From contig NZ_CP077091.1 of the NCBI RefSeq assembly GCF_014268595.2, positions 4,012,001 through 4,076,000 on the forward strand: a stretch of DNA of 64,000 nt, given 5' to 3'. Shown one piece after another: positions 34,946 through 42,935 of the stretch; the stretch's first letter is position 1; every line of letters starts with the position of its first letter. This DNA comes from Pseudomonas hamedanensis (GTDB lineage: Bacteria; Pseudomonadota; Gammaproteobacteria; Pseudomonadales; Pseudomonadaceae). Below the pieces are notes generated by a model, which saw only the letters and a list, made by a program, of their open reading frames with translations, was not told the DNA's origin and did not search any database. The translations under genes and the position numbers were made by a program.

Positions 34946-36989
<2,044 letters not shown>

Positions 36990-37002
36990 ACCAGTTGCTG
37001 AC

Positions 37003-37028
37003 CCGACCCGTCACGCTAGGCGGGTCGG
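37003..37028. terminator. Candidate bidirectional stem-loop between qor and the unknown operon
   Basis: CCGACCCG (37003-37010) pairs with CGGGTCGG (37021-37028). The loop contains the stop codon of the minus-strand ligase gene. No T-run follows on either side, so it may be a weak terminator or mRNA end protection. Confidence 0.5.
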
Positions 37029-38333
37029 CGCCTGTTGCAACTCGACAAAGAACGGCGTCTTGCCGGCCGTGGTGGTCGCGAAGGCTCCACGGGGCAGCCG
37101 CCGCACCTGCAACCCAAGCACGCCGGGCAATTTGAGCAAGGCACTGGCCTGCGCCTCGGCGTGCAAAGCCTGCTCAAGGCCACCCTGCGCAGCAGCGGGG
37201 AGTTTGTCCTCGGCGATGACCAGACGCATGCACGCGCCGTTCACCTGTCGATCAATCTGCACCTGAATATCCGCCGCATGCAGATCAGGAATTGCTTGTG
37301 CGAGCACACTCAGAATCTGCCGCTGGGTAATGATCGCACCGCCCAGCTTGATCGTCGTCTCTACTCGCCCCACAAGCTCCAGCACTGGCAGGGCACTGCC
37401 ACAGGCGCACTTGGGCAAGTTGGGCACGATTCGCCCGCAGTCACCAATGCGGTAACGCAGCAACGGCACATGGTCCGGCAGCAATGGCGTCAGCAGAAAC
37501 TCGCCGCACTCACCCTCGGGCAGCGCTTGCAGGGTCAACGGATTGACCACTTCGACCAGCATCGCGTCGGCATGCAGATGATAGAAACCCGGCTCCAGAT
37601 GGGCGCACTGAAAACCGATCGGGCCGGTCTCCGTCGCGCTGTAGCCCAGTGATCGCAAGGTCAGGCCCGGCCAGTCTCGGGTCAGTTGCTCACGCAGCAG
37701 CGCGCTGCACGGTTCTCCGATGTAGTAGAGCCACTTCAGGCTACCCAGCTGTCTTCTGTCGACAGCGACATCATTGAACAGCGCCGCCGCGAAGGAGGGC
37801 GTGCAGATCAGGGCATCGGCCTTTTGTGACTGGACCAGTTCGGCAATGCGTTGAAGGCCCATCAGTGAGCCGGCGGGTAACAAGCGCGCGCCGAGGCGCT
37901 GAACGATGGCCGCCGCGTATTGAAACGCGCCCTGCATTTCGCCGGCAGTGAGGCAATTGATCACCACAGAGGGGGTCTGGCCCGTCGCAAACATCCGTAC
38001 GCCCAAGCGCACGATGCTGTCGTTGAAGGCCCAGGAGTGGGTGATGTGCTTGCGGTTGCCGGTGCTACCGCCCGATGTCAGGGTCAACCCACCACCCGGC
38101 GCCAGGTGCGATGCCTCGCCCAGCAGAGAAAACAGCAATCCGCCCTGTTCGTCCTCTACGGCCTGAACCGGCAGCAGGTGCAGATCCTCCGCGCTCTGCA
38201 CGCGCCGTATCGGCGGACACACCGTACAGAACCAGGACAACGAACGCGCATGGGCGAACTTGCGCGCAAGGGCTTCGGTCGCTGCCGCGTAAACCGTGGC
38301 AGCGCTGGCAAACAGCAGCGGATCATCGGTCAT
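37011..38333 (-). CDS. PaaK-like adenylate-forming enzyme (last gene of unknown operon)
   Basis: A 440-residue enzyme of the phenylacetate-CoA ligase/coenzyme F390 synthetase branch of ANL enzymes. The ATP-binding loop is LTSGGSTGNRKHITHS (near residue 82), then YSATETGPIGF (A5), RYRIGDCG (A7), and a CxC pair (KCACGS) found in PaaK relatives. RVETTIKLGGAIITQRQI leads to the C-terminal lid. It should activate a carboxylic acid as the adenylate, then pass it to CoA, an amine or another acceptor. Substrate is unknown. Its start overlaps the oxoamine synthase gene by 11 bases. Confidence 0.8.
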   Translation of the reverse strand: MTDDPLLFASAATVYAAATEALARKFAHARSLSWFCTVCPPIRRVQSAEDLHLLPVQAVEDEQGGLLFSLLGEASHLAPGGGLTLTSGGSTGNRKHITHSWAFNDSIVRLGVRMFATGQTPSVVINCLTAGEMQGAFQYAAAIVQRLGARLLPAGSLMGLQRIAELVQSQKADALICTPSFAAALFNDVAVDRRQLGSLKWLYYIGEPCSALLREQLTRDWPGLTLRSLGYSATETGPIGFQCAHLEPGFYHLHADAMLVEVVNPLTLQALPEGECGEFLLTPLLPDHVPLLRYRIGDCGRIVPNLPKCACGSALPVLELVGRVETTIKLGGAIITQRQILSVLAQAIPDLHAADIQVQIDRQVNGACMRLVIAEDKLPAAAQGGLEQALHAEAQASALLKLPGVLGLQVRRLPRGAFATTTAGKTPFFVELQQAPTRLA

Positions 38334-39591
38334 GGGTGCGTTCTCCCTGACGGATGCACAACTCGTCGAAGCCAGTGCTCACGGCTGTCGCCAGGTGTTC
38401 GAGCTGGGCCTGGCTGTGATTCGCGCTGATTGCCAGACGCAGCATCGCCTCGCCTTTGGCCACCACCGGAAACAGCGCAGTGGTGACCGCAATGGCCTGC
38501 CGGCGCAGATGCAGCGCCAGACTCACTGCATCACGCTCGGCGCCGACCCGGACGAAGCGTATGGGCGATGCGATTCGGTGATTGCCCAGTCGCGCTCCCA
38601 GCAAGTCATCGATCAGCGCGACATTGCGCCACAACGCGGCCTGAAGCGGACCCAACTGCGGTGAAAGATGAATGTTCGCAGAGGCGACCGCAGCACCGAC
38701 ACCGCCCATGGACAGAGGGCCGCCGAAGGTATAGGTCGAGGCGTGGCGCCGTATCAGTTCGGCATCGGCCACCGCCCGCACGGTAATTGCCCCACCGGTT
38801 GCGCCAAAGGCCTTGGACAGGGAAGACAACACAATCATGCGATCGCGCAGTGACTCCGTGGCGGCGACAAGCGCATATCCGCCGCCTGCCAGCCCGTGGA
38901 TCGAGGTGCCATGGGCGTCATCTGCATACAGGTAACCGTCAAAGCGCTCGGCCAGTTGCAGCAAGCGATTGACCGGATACACCCCGCGCATCGAACCGAT
39001 GCTGTCGGTCAGGATGATTGGCGTATTGCCTGCCGCGACGGCTGTTGTACAGGCATCTTCGACTTGCTGCACATCGCTGCAATCACAGCGCAGCACGGGT
39101 CCGAACTGGCACAGGATGCCTTGCAATACCTGCATTGAGGCATGGGCAGCCCGGTCGACGATCCAGCCGGGACCTCGACGCAAGGGATACGAGGGCAACT
39201 CGCCGGAGCCGAGCAGCGGCAGGCAACCGAGGTGCGCGCTACCGACGGAGTTGAAGGTGACCGTATGCCCCTGGAAAATTTGGTTCAGCCGCTCATCAAG
39301 TTCGCGCATCGGCGGCAACAGTGCCCGGGTGCGCGCGGCAGCGAACTGCACGCCGAACATTTCCACGGCCTGCACCGCGCCTTCAATCAAGCGCGGATCG
39401 CATTCGAGTCCCAGATAAGAGCAGGAAAGAAATTCAGTCAGGCATTCGCCACTGTCCAACTCGATGTTCTTGCCGTCGCGCGTCATGACCTTGAGACCGT
39501 TGAGGCCGGCATCGAACAGTTGCTGTTGGTCGTCACGGGCCTGGCGAACGCGATTGCTGACCCAGTTGACGGTCGGATGAGGTGTATTCAT
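38323..39591 (-). CDS. PLP-dependent alpha-oxoamine synthase-like enzyme (CqsA/KBL/SPT fold)
   Basis: A 422-residue aminotransferase fold-type I enzyme. The pyridoxal Lys is K260 in SSLSKAFGATGG. H150 (RAAHAS) stacks on the ring, and D224 with H227 in YADDAHGTS hold it, as in AonS, KBL and CqsA. Such enzymes join an acyl-CoA and an amino acid with loss of CO2, or in CqsA take S-adenosylmethionine or aminobutyrate as the amino donor. It lies fourth of five genes, with a four-base overlap with the DUF3419 gene upstream. The acyl and amino substrates cannot be told from sequence alone. Confidence 0.82.
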   Translation of the reverse strand: MNTPHPTVNWVSNRVRQARDDQQQLFDAGLNGLKVMTRDGKNIELDSGECLTEFLSCSYLGLECDPRLIEGAVQAVEMFGVQFAAARTRALLPPMRELDERLNQIFQGHTVTFNSVGSAHLGCLPLLGSGELPSYPLRRGPGWIVDRAAHASMQVLQGILCQFGPVLRCDCSDVQQVEDACTTAVAAGNTPIILTDSIGSMRGVYPVNRLLQLAERFDGYLYADDAHGTSIHGLAGGGYALVAATESLRDRMIVLSSLSKAFGATGGAITVRAVADAELIRRHASTYTFGGPLSMGGVGAAVASANIHLSPQLGPLQAALWRNVALIDDLLGARLGNHRIASPIRFVRVGAERDAVSLALHLRRQAIAVTTALFPVVAKGEAMLRLAISANHSQAQLEHLATAVSTGFDELCIRQGERTHDR

Positions 39592-40682
39592 CGGGATACC
39601 TGCACAGGTGAGGTCTGGCGATAGACCTGTACGCGCCAGAGCTGGGTTTTTTCACGCGCAATCGCTTCGTGAAACTGCGAGCTGACATCACGGAAGCCTT
39701 CGCAGTCGGGCCGGACCACGCGCAAATGGCCGCGCATCACCGTGAGGGCATGCTCGGCCAGGGCCGGTCGCAGCCGCTGTAGAACCGTCGCGGCAGTAGC
39801 ATCGGGCAAAAATGAAGGCACATCCGACAGCGAGACGAAATCCACTTCAGTGCACGCGGCCACGCAATCAACGATGTCGCCCTGTACCACGCTCACTCGG
39901 CACTGCTTCAACGCTTCACGAGCACTTTGAAAAATCTGTGGATCACACTCCAGCGGGTAGCCTTGCGGATACCGCAGCTCACCGAAGAACAGCATCTGCA
40001 GAAAGAAGCTTTCGCGCACGACCTGTGTCGTGAACAAGGCATGGAAAATGTCGAGGTAGACCTTGCGCGAACTGATTCCCAGGTTATTCGCCGGAAACGC
40101 ACCGCGGTACAGCAACGAGTTGAGTACGGCGGCATTGCCCAGCAACCCGATGACGGCTTTCCAGCGCCGAAGTGGAAAATGGCGGCGGTAATAGTCCGAT
40201 TGCTCGCCAAGGTCGCAACACTGGAAAATCCCACGGCCGGCCTTTCCAGTGACCAGACCGTTGATCCTCGCCAGGCGCCGCAAGGTCTGCTCGAACGCGC
40301 CCAGATAGATCGGCGCGTGCCAGTGACTGGACTGGAACAGGTCCGCCAGCCAGCGGCGATCCACCAGGGGCAGGTCCAGTTGCCGGAAAACCGACTGGCG
40401 CCGCGTGATCGAGGTGTCTGGGCGATACCCCATGAAGTCCATGAACGACTCATGGTCGGTCTGCTCCAGCAGGGCCAGGCGCAACCGGGTGAACGCCAGT
40501 TGCGGTGCACTGATATCAGCACAGGTCAGGCGTGCCGGGAATCGGGCGAGCAAGGGCAAAAGCCGGCTGCCACATCCGGCGACGTCCACCACATGCCGGG
40601 CATGCTCGGGCACAATCCTGTGCTCGAGCGCGGCGTCTTCATCACCCAGCGAATAATTCAGCCGCTCGAAGTAATCAGCCAT
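39588..40682 (-). CDS. BtaA/DUF3419-like SAM-dependent 3-amino-3-carboxypropyl transferase
   Basis: A 364-residue protein. ADYFERLNYSLGDEDAALEH at the start, VVDVAGCGSRLLPLLARF, TCADISAPQLAFTRLRLALL and ESFMDFMGYR are features of DUF3419 proteins. That family includes BtaA, which transfers the aminocarboxypropyl group of S-adenosylmethionine to diacylglycerol. The start at 40682 follows a perfect GGGAGG; the frame opening at 40721 lacks one. The C-terminal part (from about residue 270) is methyltransferase-like. Whether it moves an aminocarboxypropyl or a methyl group is open. No BtaB partner gene is nearby, so betaine lipid synthesis is less likely. Confidence 0.75.
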   Translation of the reverse strand: MADYFERLNYSLGDEDAALEHRIVPEHARHVVDVAGCGSRLLPLLARFPARLTCADISAPQLAFTRLRLALLEQTDHESFMDFMGYRPDTSITRRQSVFRQLDLPLVDRRWLADLFQSSHWHAPIYLGAFEQTLRRLARINGLVTGKAGRGIFQCCDLGEQSDYYRRHFPLRRWKAVIGLLGNAAVLNSLLYRGAFPANNLGISSRKVYLDIFHALFTTQVVRESFFLQMLFFGELRYPQGYPLECDPQIFQSAREALKQCRVSVVQGDIVDCVAACTEVDFVSLSDVPSFLPDATAATVLQRLRPALAEHALTVMRGHLRVVRPDCEGFRDVSSQFHEAIAREKTQLWRVQVYRQTSPVQVSR

Positions 40683-40724
40683 GCCGGCCTCCCTGCGTCC
40701 GCTGCGAAAATGAACAGGCACGCG

Positions 40725-41459
40725 TCATGATTGATCCAGGGCATGCAGAAAGTCGTAGCGGGGCGCCTGGCCGCTTTGCCAGGCTTCGTACTGCTCATAC
40801 ACCGCTTCGAGCATGTTGCCGGTCAGGCGCAGACTGGTTTCCATCACCACCGTAATGGCGTCCCAGTCAGCCTGACTTTTGCAGGTTCGCTGCAGGATGA
40901 GTTTGATTTCGTTGAAGTGCTCGATATCGATATCGGAGTGCGCAATAAAAAACGTCAACTGGGCAGGTTTCAGTGCCAGAACTTCGCTTATCCGGGTGAT
41001 CAATGGCGTGATGAACTGATAGGCGTTTTCTGCCCAATAACTGTAGCCAAGTCGCTGTAATGGATTCCCGGTGAAAGAAATCCAGTACAAATAAGCGATC
41101 AGTACTTCTGTGGCCGGAAGTGCAGGCGGCATATCGAAAACTTCGCTTTTGAGGCCCAGACTCATGACATCGTGCAGGGCCATTTTTTCATGGCCGACTT
41201 CCTGGGCGGCATGTTCGAAGCAGAACTTTGCATAGACCGGATTATCGGCGTGACGCACGCCCACCAATCCCTGATTACGGGCATTGTGCGCGGTGTAGTG
41301 AAATGTTTCGATCATATAGAGGGCATATAACGCTTTGCTCACGCTTCCCTCGCGGATGGCCCTGACCAACCGTGAGTTGTCGAGAATATCGGCCCATGTT
41401 TTTTCGATTCGCTGGTCAAGCAGAATCAACTGCTGTTCAAAACTGACGGACGTGTTCAT
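40725..41459 (-). CDS. Haem-oxygenase-like di-iron oxidase (HDO)
   Basis: A 244-residue all-helical protein. The metal ligands expected for the HDO fold are in place: E51 and H58 (ETFHYTAH, E-x6-H), a glutamate near 144 (YWAENAYQF), and H174, D178 and H181 (HSDIDIEH), spaced as in Chlamydia CADD. A second EVGHEKM segment (E87, H90) is also conserved-looking. Related enzymes oxidise or cleave amines and fatty acids, hydroxylate nitrogen or make alkenes, with two irons and oxygen. It is second in the operon, overlapping the acyltransferase gene by 23 bases. GC is lower than in neighbours (about 47% in 40981-41040). Confidence 0.82.
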   Translation of the reverse strand: MNTSVSFEQQLILLDQRIEKTWADILDNSRLVRAIREGSVSKALYALYMIETFHYTAHNARNQGLVGVRHADNPVYAKFCFEHAAQEVGHEKMALHDVMSLGLKSEVFDMPPALPATEVLIAYLYWISFTGNPLQRLGYSYWAENAYQFITPLITRISEVLALKPAQLTFFIAHSDIDIEHFNEIKLILQRTCKSQADWDAITVVMETSLRLTGNMLEAVYEQYEAWQSGQAPRYDFLHALDQS

Positions 41460-42105
41460 CGCAATTCTCCGAAGGGTTGGCGTTGAGGGCGACGGGTTGC
41501 TGCAGGGCCGCAAGGATTTCCCGCCATTGCGCCGCGAGCAGCCAGTAATCGCCACGCGCGCGTTGCTCGATATGAAGGGCGGTGGAGGGAAGCGGGGTCA
41601 GGCCGAAACGCTGGAACATGCGCCGCTGTGGCGACCGGCACAAGGCGGTGATCCCTTGATAGCCACGGTTGATCGCCCACTCGGTAGCAACCGCCAGCAG
41701 GCCATTGATCGGTACGGACCGGTGCTGTTGCGAATGGGTGATCAGGCGACTGAACTCGACATGACGCGCCAGCGCCACCGTCGGTGAAAGATACTGTTGC
41801 GCCAGGGAGGCCCATTCGAAAGGCGAGGGCGTTACCCTCAATACGCCCACCAGTTGGTCACGCTGGTACATCAGAAAATGAGTACTGCGCGCCACAATCG
41901 CCAGGCTGGTTTCCAGCGCCCGGGCTCTGGAGGTCAGCATGTAATGTTGTAAGCGCAAACGAAACTGCCGCCCGACAAATCGCTCAAATTCGCGAGCATC
42001 CGATCCGGCTTCAAGAATAACGACACGATAACCGCCTTGCTGATTAATCAATGCCACTTGCAGTCGTTGCAGATAGTCCCTGAGTTGTAAATCCGTAGTA
42101 TCCAT
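41437..42105 (-). CDS. FeeM-like N-acyl amino acid synthase (GNAT-fold acyltransferase)
   Basis: A 222-residue protein, first in the operon. The GNAT core shows RSVPINGLLAVATEWAINRG (near residue 140) then GITALCRSPQRRMFQRFG, the pattern of the FeeM/autoinducer-synthase branch. It should transfer an acyl chain, perhaps from acyl-ACP, to an amino acid or amine. No acyl-carrier gene is in the operon. The start at 42105 follows GGAGAAGGA and lies downstream of a -35/-10-like promoter. Its 3' end overlaps the di-iron oxidase gene. Alternative: a plain N-acetyltransferase. Confidence 0.72.
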   Translation of the reverse strand: MDTTDLQLRDYLQRLQVALINQQGGYRVVILEAGSDAREFERFVGRQFRLRLQHYMLTSRARALETSLAIVARSTHFLMYQRDQLVGVLRVTPSPFEWASLAQQYLSPTVALARHVEFSRLITHSQQHRSVPINGLLAVATEWAINRGYQGITALCRSPQRRMFQRFGLTPLPSTALHIEQRARGDYWLLAAQWREILAALQQPVALNANPSENCDEHVRQF

Positions 42106-42223
42106 TCCTTCTCCGCAAACGTTAACTTATCGAAGTTTTCTGCGCGCATTTGAATAATGGATGCTTTTGGAAATATCGCCACTGCGCGACTTCTGATAAT
42201 CACGTGGGAAAAATTACTGGATT

Positions 42224-42253
42224 TTTATAGTTATCGATTCGTCTGACACACAA
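42224..42253 (-). promoter_or_regulatory. Candidate sigma-70 promoter of the unknown operon
   Basis: On the minus strand, TTGTGT (42253-42248) and TATAAA (42229-42224) are 18 bases apart. The leader to the first start codon at 42105 would be about 110 bases. Confidence 0.45.
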
Positions 42254-42321
42254 AGAAACAGCACAACAAACAAGTTGTTTAAATTACGAGCGAGATTGAA
42301 AGACGAATAACCAATGGGTGT

Positions 42322-42353
42322 AGTACTCCTCGTCTGGACGATCGAGGAGTACT
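42322..42353. terminator. 11-base perfect hairpin after tsaC (terminator or operator)
   Basis: AGTACTCCTCG and CGAGGAGTACT are exact arms around a ten-base loop. It begins 25 bases beyond the tsaC stop, in the direction of transcription. No T-run follows on the minus strand, so an operator or a stalling/attenuation site for the operon is as likely as a terminator. Confidence 0.5.
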
Positions 42354-42377
42354 CAAGGATTGCGGGAAAAAATGCTG

Positions 42378-42935
42378 TCAGTCGGGGCGAATGACGTTGC
42401 CGGTGACCAGATCGCGGATGACGCTGGGGTTCTTGCGCCCTCCCAACTGCCCGCCCAGCACGCGGTCGATCTGTCCGCGGAAATATTGCTCGACCCGCAG
42501 GCGAGTACGCGCCGCCGGGCGCCCTTGTGGGTTGGCCGAGGTGGAGATCAGCGGCCCGACCATCGAGCACAGATCGCGCACCTGTGGATGATCGCTGACG
42601 CGCAGCGCCACGGTGTCATGCACCCCGGTAACCCATTCCGGCAACAGGTTCTGGTGCGGTACCAGCCAGGTGTTTGGCCCCGGCCAGGTGCTGGCCATGC
42701 GGTCGAGCCACTCTTGCGGGAAGTCTTCAAACAAAAAGTCGAACTGGCGGATGTTGTCTGCCACCAGAATCAGGCCTTTATTGACCGAGCGATTTTTGAT
42801 CGCCAGCAGCCGATCCACCGCTTCCTCGTTCCACGGGTCGCACCCCAGCCCCCAGACGGCTTCGGTTGGATAGGCAATCACCGCGCCGGCGCGAATATCT
42901 CGTGCGGCTTGCTGCACACGCCAACTGTTGACCAT
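42378..42935 (-). CDS. tsaC: Threonylcarbamoyl-AMP synthase TsaC
   Basis: A 185-residue YrdC-fold enzyme that makes threonylcarbamoyl-AMP from threonine, bicarbonate and ATP for the t6A tRNA modification. The KxR-SxN pattern is present: [13 protein letters not shown], with RVSDHPQV and [12 protein letters not shown] further on. Length fits TsaC rather than the longer Sua5. It is the last conserved gene of the block before the inserted operon. In P. aeruginosa it (PA0022) precedes qor, as recalled. Confidence 0.92.

Follow-up and report, generated by a model that had tools for sequence, protein, structure and literature searches.

What product could be made by five adjoining genes, here called A to E, which lie between tsaC and qor in Pseudomonas hamedanensis? 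The locus was considered within a stretch of 64,000 nucleotides (assembly GCF_014268595.2, contig NZ_CP077091.1, positions 4,012,001 to 4,076,000), called the window below. An earlier note, made from the sequence alone, had read these genes as an operon for a small molecule and had known of no described pathway with this set. No description of the five-gene combination was found by us either in the open-access full-text literature (titles and the beginnings of abstracts; most subscription journals lie outside this scope). Each of the enzyme classes is known, and their combination is new as far as the open-access literature shows.

In our opinion, the operon may encode a specialised metabolite pathway that is independent of nonribosomal peptide synthetases and polyketide synthases; this view is held tentatively, with somewhat less than even confidence. 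In the order of steps that we infer, C, a BtaA-like enzyme, would bind S-adenosylmethionine (SAM) and transfer its 3-amino-3-carboxypropyl group, not methyl, so that a small nucleophile becomes a new alpha-amino acid. A, an acyltransferase of LuxI/FeeM type, would N-acylate an amine, and B, a di-iron heme-oxygenase-like dimetal oxidase (HDO), would oxidise the amino acid or its acyl derivative by desaturation, N-oxygenation or C–C cleavage. In Pseudomonas, the route could be extended by E, which would activate a carboxylic acid as an acyl adenylate (acyl-AMP) or acyl-coenzyme A (acyl-CoA), and by D, which would couple this acid to an alpha-amino acid, perhaps the one made by C, in a decarboxylative condensation giving an alpha-aminoketone. 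The products of 3-amino-3-carboxypropyl transfer would be alpha-amino acids, hence possible substrates of D. SAM may serve here as a carbon or nitrogen source, as the earlier note had supposed.

This reading is preferred because the gene junctions are fixed and purifying selection acts on all five genes, and because B and C lie side by side in 16 loci outside Pseudomonas, with A in 10 of them (plus 3 read by eye). It is also favoured because D is nearest to Alb29, an aminoketone-forming enzyme, because some of the loci carry a linked SAM decarboxylase gene (speD), because the predicted fold of C is a class I SAM fold and because BtaA and MccD provide precedents.

Organisation of the Operon

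The layout given in the earlier note, five minus-strand genes between tsaC and qor, was confirmed from the open reading frames (ORFs) when ATG starts were used. The junctions comprise an overlap of 23 bases (A/B), a gap of 42 (B/C) and overlaps of 4 (C/D) and 11 (D/E). The longest ORFs of B and C begin at GTG codons, at 41555 and 40721, and the ATG starts at 41459 and 40682 were taken for the junctions. Identical values at all four junctions were obtained in 7 of the 9 other carriers measured; the exceptions are L015, for which the script took a different start of E, and L026, with a stop in gene B. All five genes are under purifying selection: the median ratios of nonsynonymous to synonymous substitution rates (dN/dS) in 21 Pseudomonas copies are 0.169 (A), 0.058 (B), 0.153 (C), 0.079 (D) and 0.175 (E), each calculated from the 199–202 of 210 pairs with dS of 0.2–2. 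Such low values in all five genes mean that the arrangement is not a chance packing of ORFs.

Table 1. Features of the locus and its borders (positions in the window)
Feature	Position	Strand	Length or basis
Gene A, LuxI/FeeM-like GCN5-related N-acetyltransferase (GNAT) family acyltransferase	41437–42105	minus	ORF of 222 amino acids
Gene B, HDO	40725–41459	minus	244 amino acids from ATG
Gene C, DUF3419/BtaA-like SAM-dependent transferase	39588–40682	minus	364 amino acids from ATG
Gene D, alpha-oxoamine synthase, NCBIfam subfamily PRK07505	38323–39591	minus	422 amino acids
Gene E, PaaK-like adenylate-forming ligase	37011–38333	minus	440 amino acids
tsaC, upstream border of the insertion	42378–42935	minus	ORF and tblastn
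qor, convergent downstream border of the insertion	36012–36989	plus	ORF and tblastn
AT-rich upstream region with conserved block	42106–42380	minus	alignment of 25 upstream regions

The lower guanine-plus-cytosine content reported earlier for B and for the region upstream is real (0.516 in B against 0.605 in the window, with the upstream region likewise lower), but it gives no evidence of recent transfer. Values of 0.474–0.527 are found in 21 of 21 Pseudomonas copies of B, whose composition therefore does not indicate a recent arrival in this strain, and all 22 full loci occupy the same site; recent transfer into the present strain was rejected on these grounds.

The upstream region contains a block, TTTTCC.ACGT.ATT.TCAGA, conserved across the aligned regions of full loci and of loci with A only. 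In the window, an AACTT-CGAT-AAGTT hairpin was read by eye shortly before A. The exceptions are L119, which diverges within the block, and L121, which is without the hairpin. No match to a sigma-70-type promoter was found within 36900–42500. Past tsaC, an inverted repeat, GAGTACTCCTCG...CGAGGAGTACT, occupies 42322–42354, and related repeats occur in strains with the full set and with A only; perhaps it is the terminator of tsaC.

The A-B-C Module outside Pseudomonas

At least 41 loci, counted with one genome per species, encode a relative of C. Of these, 14 lie in Pseudomonas, B precedes C in 15 from other bacteria, and the remaining 12 gave no B match. The 16 non-Pseudomonas B-C loci, found among the matches listed together with a Deefgea plasmid, belong to 15 genomes (L037 and L040 are both from Corallococcus exercitus), and B and C are adjacent in them. 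Their hosts are Myxococcota, Trinickia, Deefgea, two Flavobacteriaceae, Zooshikella, Aestuariibacter and a metagenome-assembled genome (MAG) of Lysobacterales. Gene A was detected by tblastn (E ≤ 1e-3) in the 10 loci mentioned, and the three read by eye (L033, L044, L046) have an acyltransferase-like ORF at its position. That position is taken by an Asp_Arg_Hydrox gene in L031 and, as read by eye, by a similar ORF in L032; L041 is interrupted by the contig end. Neither D nor E was found in any of the 16 loci, examined over stretches of 9.7 to 25 kb.

The conserved unit is A-B-C, which D and E accompany only in Pseudomonas among the loci examined. The five genes, treated earlier as one set, do have the layout of an operon, but the set is not indivisible, as A-B-C occurs without D and E in other phyla and A stands alone in some relatives. 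It may be concluded that A-B-C is probably an overlooked biosynthetic module crossing distant bacteria. Neighbours of the core vary and include genes for an aspartyl/asparaginyl hydroxylase, FemAB-like/Acetyltransf_6, FMN_bind_2 and Pyridox_ox_2 proteins, a PlsC-type acyltransferase and a fatty acid desaturase. The last two (Acyltransf_2 and FA_desaturase) follow A-B-C in Flavobacterium, which fits an acylated product.

The C profile matched 30 of 369 genomes of the class (E ≤ 0.001), with only the window genome above 114 bits, and 1 of 398 genomes of the phylum at E ≤ 1e-25, again that of the window. In the families of Trinickia (1 of 200) and Flavobacterium (1 of 199; E ≤ 1e-20), each match was the starting genome, and 12 of 193 Myxococcota genomes matched at E ≤ 1e-20, three of them weakly (87–128 bits). 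An HDO profile matched 23 of 293 genomes of the class (E ≤ 1e-15); apart from the window protein, none of them exceeds 33% identity to B, and no C match was found within the 1.5-kb flanks of the other HDO genes. Distant homologues of C occur in MAGs of Nomurabacteria (L045, 6164–10551) and Bdellovibrionales (L047, 9974–15128) near genes for formyltransferase, AMP-ligase and UbiA-like proteins; no A or B match was found in these two loci.

Gene C and the Link with SpeD

The family assignments made earlier for all five proteins are supported by profile, Pfam or NCBIfam and structure matches. Gene C matches Pfam DUF3419, the family of BtaA, over most of its length (68.7 bits; cut-off 28.2), and 28 of 28 aligned C homologues match it too (E ≤ 0.01). 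BtaA, a SAM:diacylglycerol 3-amino-3-carboxypropyl transferase, is found together with a linked headgroup N-methyltransferase, BtaB. Relatives of C carry the BtaA name in databases, but C has 364 residues and no second, BtaB-like methyltransferase occurs among the five genes, to which this search was confined.

Both BtaA, an enzyme of betaine lipids, and MccD are precedents for 3-amino-3-carboxypropyl transfer, and nicotianamine synthase and azetidine-2-carboxylate are further precedents involving SAM, according to PMC10491745. The microcin C enzymes MccD/MccE and azetidine-2-carboxylate synthases make small-molecule use of the 3-amino-3-carboxypropyl/aminopropyl half of SAM (PMC10491745 and PMC11794875), but they have other gene neighbours, and MccD is stated in the former paper not to be homologous to BtaA.

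The kinship of C with a betaine-lipid enzyme suggests a first alternative, in which the product is an acylated aminolipid similar to ornithine or betaine lipids: C would make the headgroup, A would N-acylate it, other acyltransferases would complete the molecule, and D in Pseudomonas would give a sphingoid-like aminoketone backbone. The acyltransferase and desaturase genes of Flavobacterium agree with this, as do the AMP-ligase, formyltransferase and UbiA-like genes beside C in the Bdellovibrionales and Nomurabacteria MAGs. The five Pseudomonas genes, however, include neither a second acyltransferase nor a headgroup methyltransferase, and E belongs to the PaaK-like proteins, a family better known for aromatic acids. 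We consider an aminolipid unlikely.

Next to A-B-C, Deefgea, Trinickia and Corallococcus exercitus each have a gene for a SAM decarboxylase, annotated as speD in Deefgea. When a profile built from five SpeD segments, three of them taken from these linked genes, was run against the 51 sequences that carry C (the window and 50 loci), SpeD was found in only these 3 and in none of the 22 Pseudomonas loci. The first SAM-binding loop of C reads A-D-C-G-S-R in exactly the three SpeD-linked sequences, the aspartate standing at the first glycine of the loop; 47 of the 51 have glycine there, and L057 gave no pattern match. Within the alignment of 28 C proteins, eight carry the loop aspartate, including those of Trinickia (P0093), Deefgea (P0082), Burkholderia gladioli (P0095), Chitiniphilus (P0056) and Glaciimonas (P0064). 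The SpeD-linked proteins group together in a weakly supported clade (86/77), whose sister group is formed by the C proteins of Pseudomonas and Lysobacterales (97/94). Two copies of A-B-C are present in C. exercitus AB043A (L037/L152 and L040), one with SpeD and the aspartate loop and the other without them.

The linkage and the aspartate loop point to the aminopropyl half of SAM, and C might use decarboxylated SAM, giving an aminopropyl, polyamine-like product and being fed in Pseudomonas by the chromosomal SpeD. The only SpeD match in the Trinickia genome is indeed the linked one (C. exercitus has two matches), the window genome has one SpeD, unlinked to the operon, and an FMN_bind_2 gene, presumably of PaiB type, lies near the Corallococcus module. 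Against this explanation, Pseudomonas C has glycine in place of the aspartate, no SpeD is linked to C in Pseudomonas, and Aestuariibacter, which has B and the glycine form of C, gave no SpeD match at all. Moreover, homologues of SpeD can instead decarboxylate ornithine or arginine (PMC10407285). That C uses decarboxylated SAM appears rather improbable.

Gene A and Related Clusters

That A is a LuxI/FeeM-like acyltransferase is well supported at the level of enzyme class by sequence comparison. A profile of 11 gene A homologues matches the N-acyl-homoserine lactone (AHL) synthase structure 3p2f (E = 1.2e-4), the E-L-S-R segment of 3p2f being aligned. At E ≤ 1, Pfam FeeM matches 6 of the 11 homologues and Autoind_synth 4, and R90 and E117-x2-R120 are invariant in all 11. 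Thus A shares profile-level similarity and the R and E-x2-R motif with LuxI AHL synthases and with the N-acyl amino acid synthase FeeM, but the window protein stays under the FeeM cut-off (18.2 against 27 bits), has no match to Autoind_synth at E ≤ 1 and is paired with B and C. Acyl-acyl carrier protein is the acyl donor of LuxI and FeeM; A may have a donor of this kind, and its acceptor would be the amine mentioned above.

Relatives of B about 37% identical to it are found on plasmids of the P. syringae group. In P. coronafaciens NZ_CP046442.1 (L180, 490–9132), one strand encodes LuxR and anthranilate synthase, and the other a PaaK-like ligase, an acetyltransferase, an HDO and a flavodoxin. 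The ligase, the A-like GNAT and the B-like HDO are consecutive; the GNAT matches the A profile (E 2.7e-6, nine-protein set), the HDO is 37% identical to B and the ligase 26% identical to E over 216 residues. This cluster differs in having anthranilate synthase I/II instead, and neither C nor D is among the annotated genes shown; we know of no product assigned to it. A GNAT-HDO pair is also carried by Agarilytica, and from the pairs in P. coronafaciens and Agarilytica the combination therefore seems to be a wider theme.

Genes B, D and E

Gene B matches Pfam Haem_oxygenas_2 (56.4 bits; cut-off 28.9), and its nearest solved structure is 3dde (E = 5.8e-75). The ligand set of HDO enzymes consists of three histidines and three carboxylates (3H/3C) within the heme-oxygenase fold (PMC13108848). 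In B, the corresponding residues E87, H90, E144, H174, D178 and H181 are all present in the window protein and kept in 36 of 37 full-length rows (39 rows in total, a few of them the same genome twice, with L026 ended by a stop and L041 by the contig end); the matching of positions is based on a weak MboA alignment and on known HDO motifs. The assignment of B to the 3H/3C di-iron HDO proteins as a predicted oxidase is thus well supported. It shares the family match and the complete ligand set with the superfamily of UndA, BesC, SznF, PolF and MboA, but it is nearest to the functionally unassigned 3dde, and its similarity to MboA is weak (16.3 bits).

The classes of D and E, an alpha-oxoamine synthase and an adenylate-forming ligase, are predicted with good support as well. 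Gene E matches Pfam AMP-binding (41.1 bits; cut-off 29.9) and structure 4r1l (E = 1.6e-24). It remains far under the cut-offs of the DVU_1553 family (101 bits against 300) and of the PaaK equivalog TIGR02155 (56.9 against 646.3), and by sequence it is a PaaK-like AMP-binding protein, not PaaK. Gene D matches NCBIfam NF005697 (PRK07505; 397.5 bits, cut-off 342), and its nearest solved structure is 8xha (E = 2e-42), which is Alb29 (PMC11906848). Alb29 forms an aminoketone from L-Glu and acyl-CoA. D belongs to the same enzyme family as Alb29, SxtA and other alpha-oxoamine synthases, but to the PRK07505 subfamily, which is named merely "hypothetical protein". Relatives of D occur on plasmids of Rhizobium, Sinorhizobium, Klebsiella and other bacteria (at least 160 plasmid records); in two that were examined (L177, L178), they lie beside asnB, or beside genes for a major facilitator superfamily protein and an aromatic amino acid transporter.

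Distribution and History in Pseudomonas

Of 149 Pseudomonas genomes, 9 carry gene C, and the operon is accessory in this genus; a housekeeping role was rejected for this reason. Comparison of the genome neighbourhoods, as suggested earlier, showed that tsaC and qor are not always separated. All 22 full loci (L010–L030 and L034; L014 and L023 are from one genome, as are L015 and L028) read dprA-tsaC-A-B-C-D-E-qor-hemF by tblastn, with dprA partial in L017 and split into two pieces in L027. The gene qor was found in 146 of the 149 genomes (E ≤ 1e-100). Of the best 30 of these 146 loci, a sample biased toward close relatives, 7 have the full set or its flank, 4 have A only and 19 have a tsaC–qor gap of 47–180 bp. 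The proposal that the five genes are inserted between tsaC and qor therefore holds.

In a FastTree tree of qor and hemF (45 rows, rooted at the midpoint, support values not inspected), the full loci fall into two parts, interspersed with empty loci, and the A-only loci are on two separate branches. The simplest reading would be a single old gain at this site followed by several losses. The A-only loci (L119, L121, L122, L124) keep the upstream region and A, and B–E were not found between tsaC and qor in them. Between these four copies of A, pairwise dN/dS lies at 0.03–0.16; A is therefore constrained without B–E. In L121, L122 and L124, an ORF of 48 codons begins inside the end of A (dN 0–0.009 and dS 0.15–0.39 between strains), and its 17-base start string is in no other locus examined; it is possible that it encodes a small protein partnered with A.

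Weighing of the Proposed Pathway

Several observations weigh against the pathway proposed here. First, the AlphaFold2 model of C (mean pLDDT, predicted local distance difference test, 90.5) has a class I SAM fold into which a long helical segment is inserted, and methyltransferases make up most of the 50 fold rows shown for it; with Foldseek, nothing matched at E ≤ 0.001, and neither search had a BtaA structure in the 50 rows that it displayed. C could be a methyltransferase. Second, the SpeD-linked C proteins belong to one weakly supported clade, and the association of SpeD with the aspartate may therefore be a single event. Third, B is interrupted by a stop in P. anatoliensis (L026, 9239–9973), and its ligand H90 is changed to Gln in P. 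iridis (L027, 9236–9985), yet C is full-length in both. Finally, A is kept alone under constraint in 4 of the 30 loci and may therefore have its own product.

A further explanation is that A is the key enzyme making a LuxI-like diffusible signal, which B–E modify in some strains. The match to 3p2f, the invariant motif, the retention of A alone on two separate branches and the LuxR-family gene adjoining the ligase-GNAT-HDO cluster of P. coronafaciens are all in its favour, but no LuxR gene was identified next to the operon, where the neighbours were read as ORFs only, and the window protein falls short of the FeeM and Autoind_synth profiles. In our estimation, the probability of this explanation is low. 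The same low standing is given to the possibility that the operon yields a methylated N-acyl aminoketone without 3-amino-3-carboxypropyl transfer, C being a methyltransferase of the ordinary kind: the fold rows and the matches of Methyltransf_25 to 20 of 28 homologues (E ≤ 0.01) agree with it, but DUF3419 matches every one of them and the SpeD linkage points to the aminopropyl half of SAM. Anti-phage defence was rejected, as none of the five proteins matches PADLOC models (E ≤ 0.01).

Significance

A broader form of the pathway preferred here would regard A-B-C as an unrecognised, phylum-crossing module, in which a BtaA-type enzyme feeds a LuxI-type acyltransferase with an amine derived from SAM (or, in the SpeD-linked clade, from its decarboxylated form) and a di-iron oxidase also takes part. 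Its products would be metabolites or signals of a new class, derived from SAM and both acylated and oxidised, and Pseudomonas would extend them to aminoketones. This broader form is doubtful at present.

If the proposed pathway is true, metabolites would be built from the aminocarboxypropyl half of SAM, for which few examples are known, by a route without nonribosomal peptide or polyketide synthases. The substrates of HDO, LuxI-like and DUF3419 enzymes could then be sought in a common context. A series for matching genes with compounds is already offered by the natural variants, namely A alone, A-B-C, A-B-C with SpeD, and A-B-C-D-E. If the product is a signal, the LuxI superfamily would extend past homoserine lactones.

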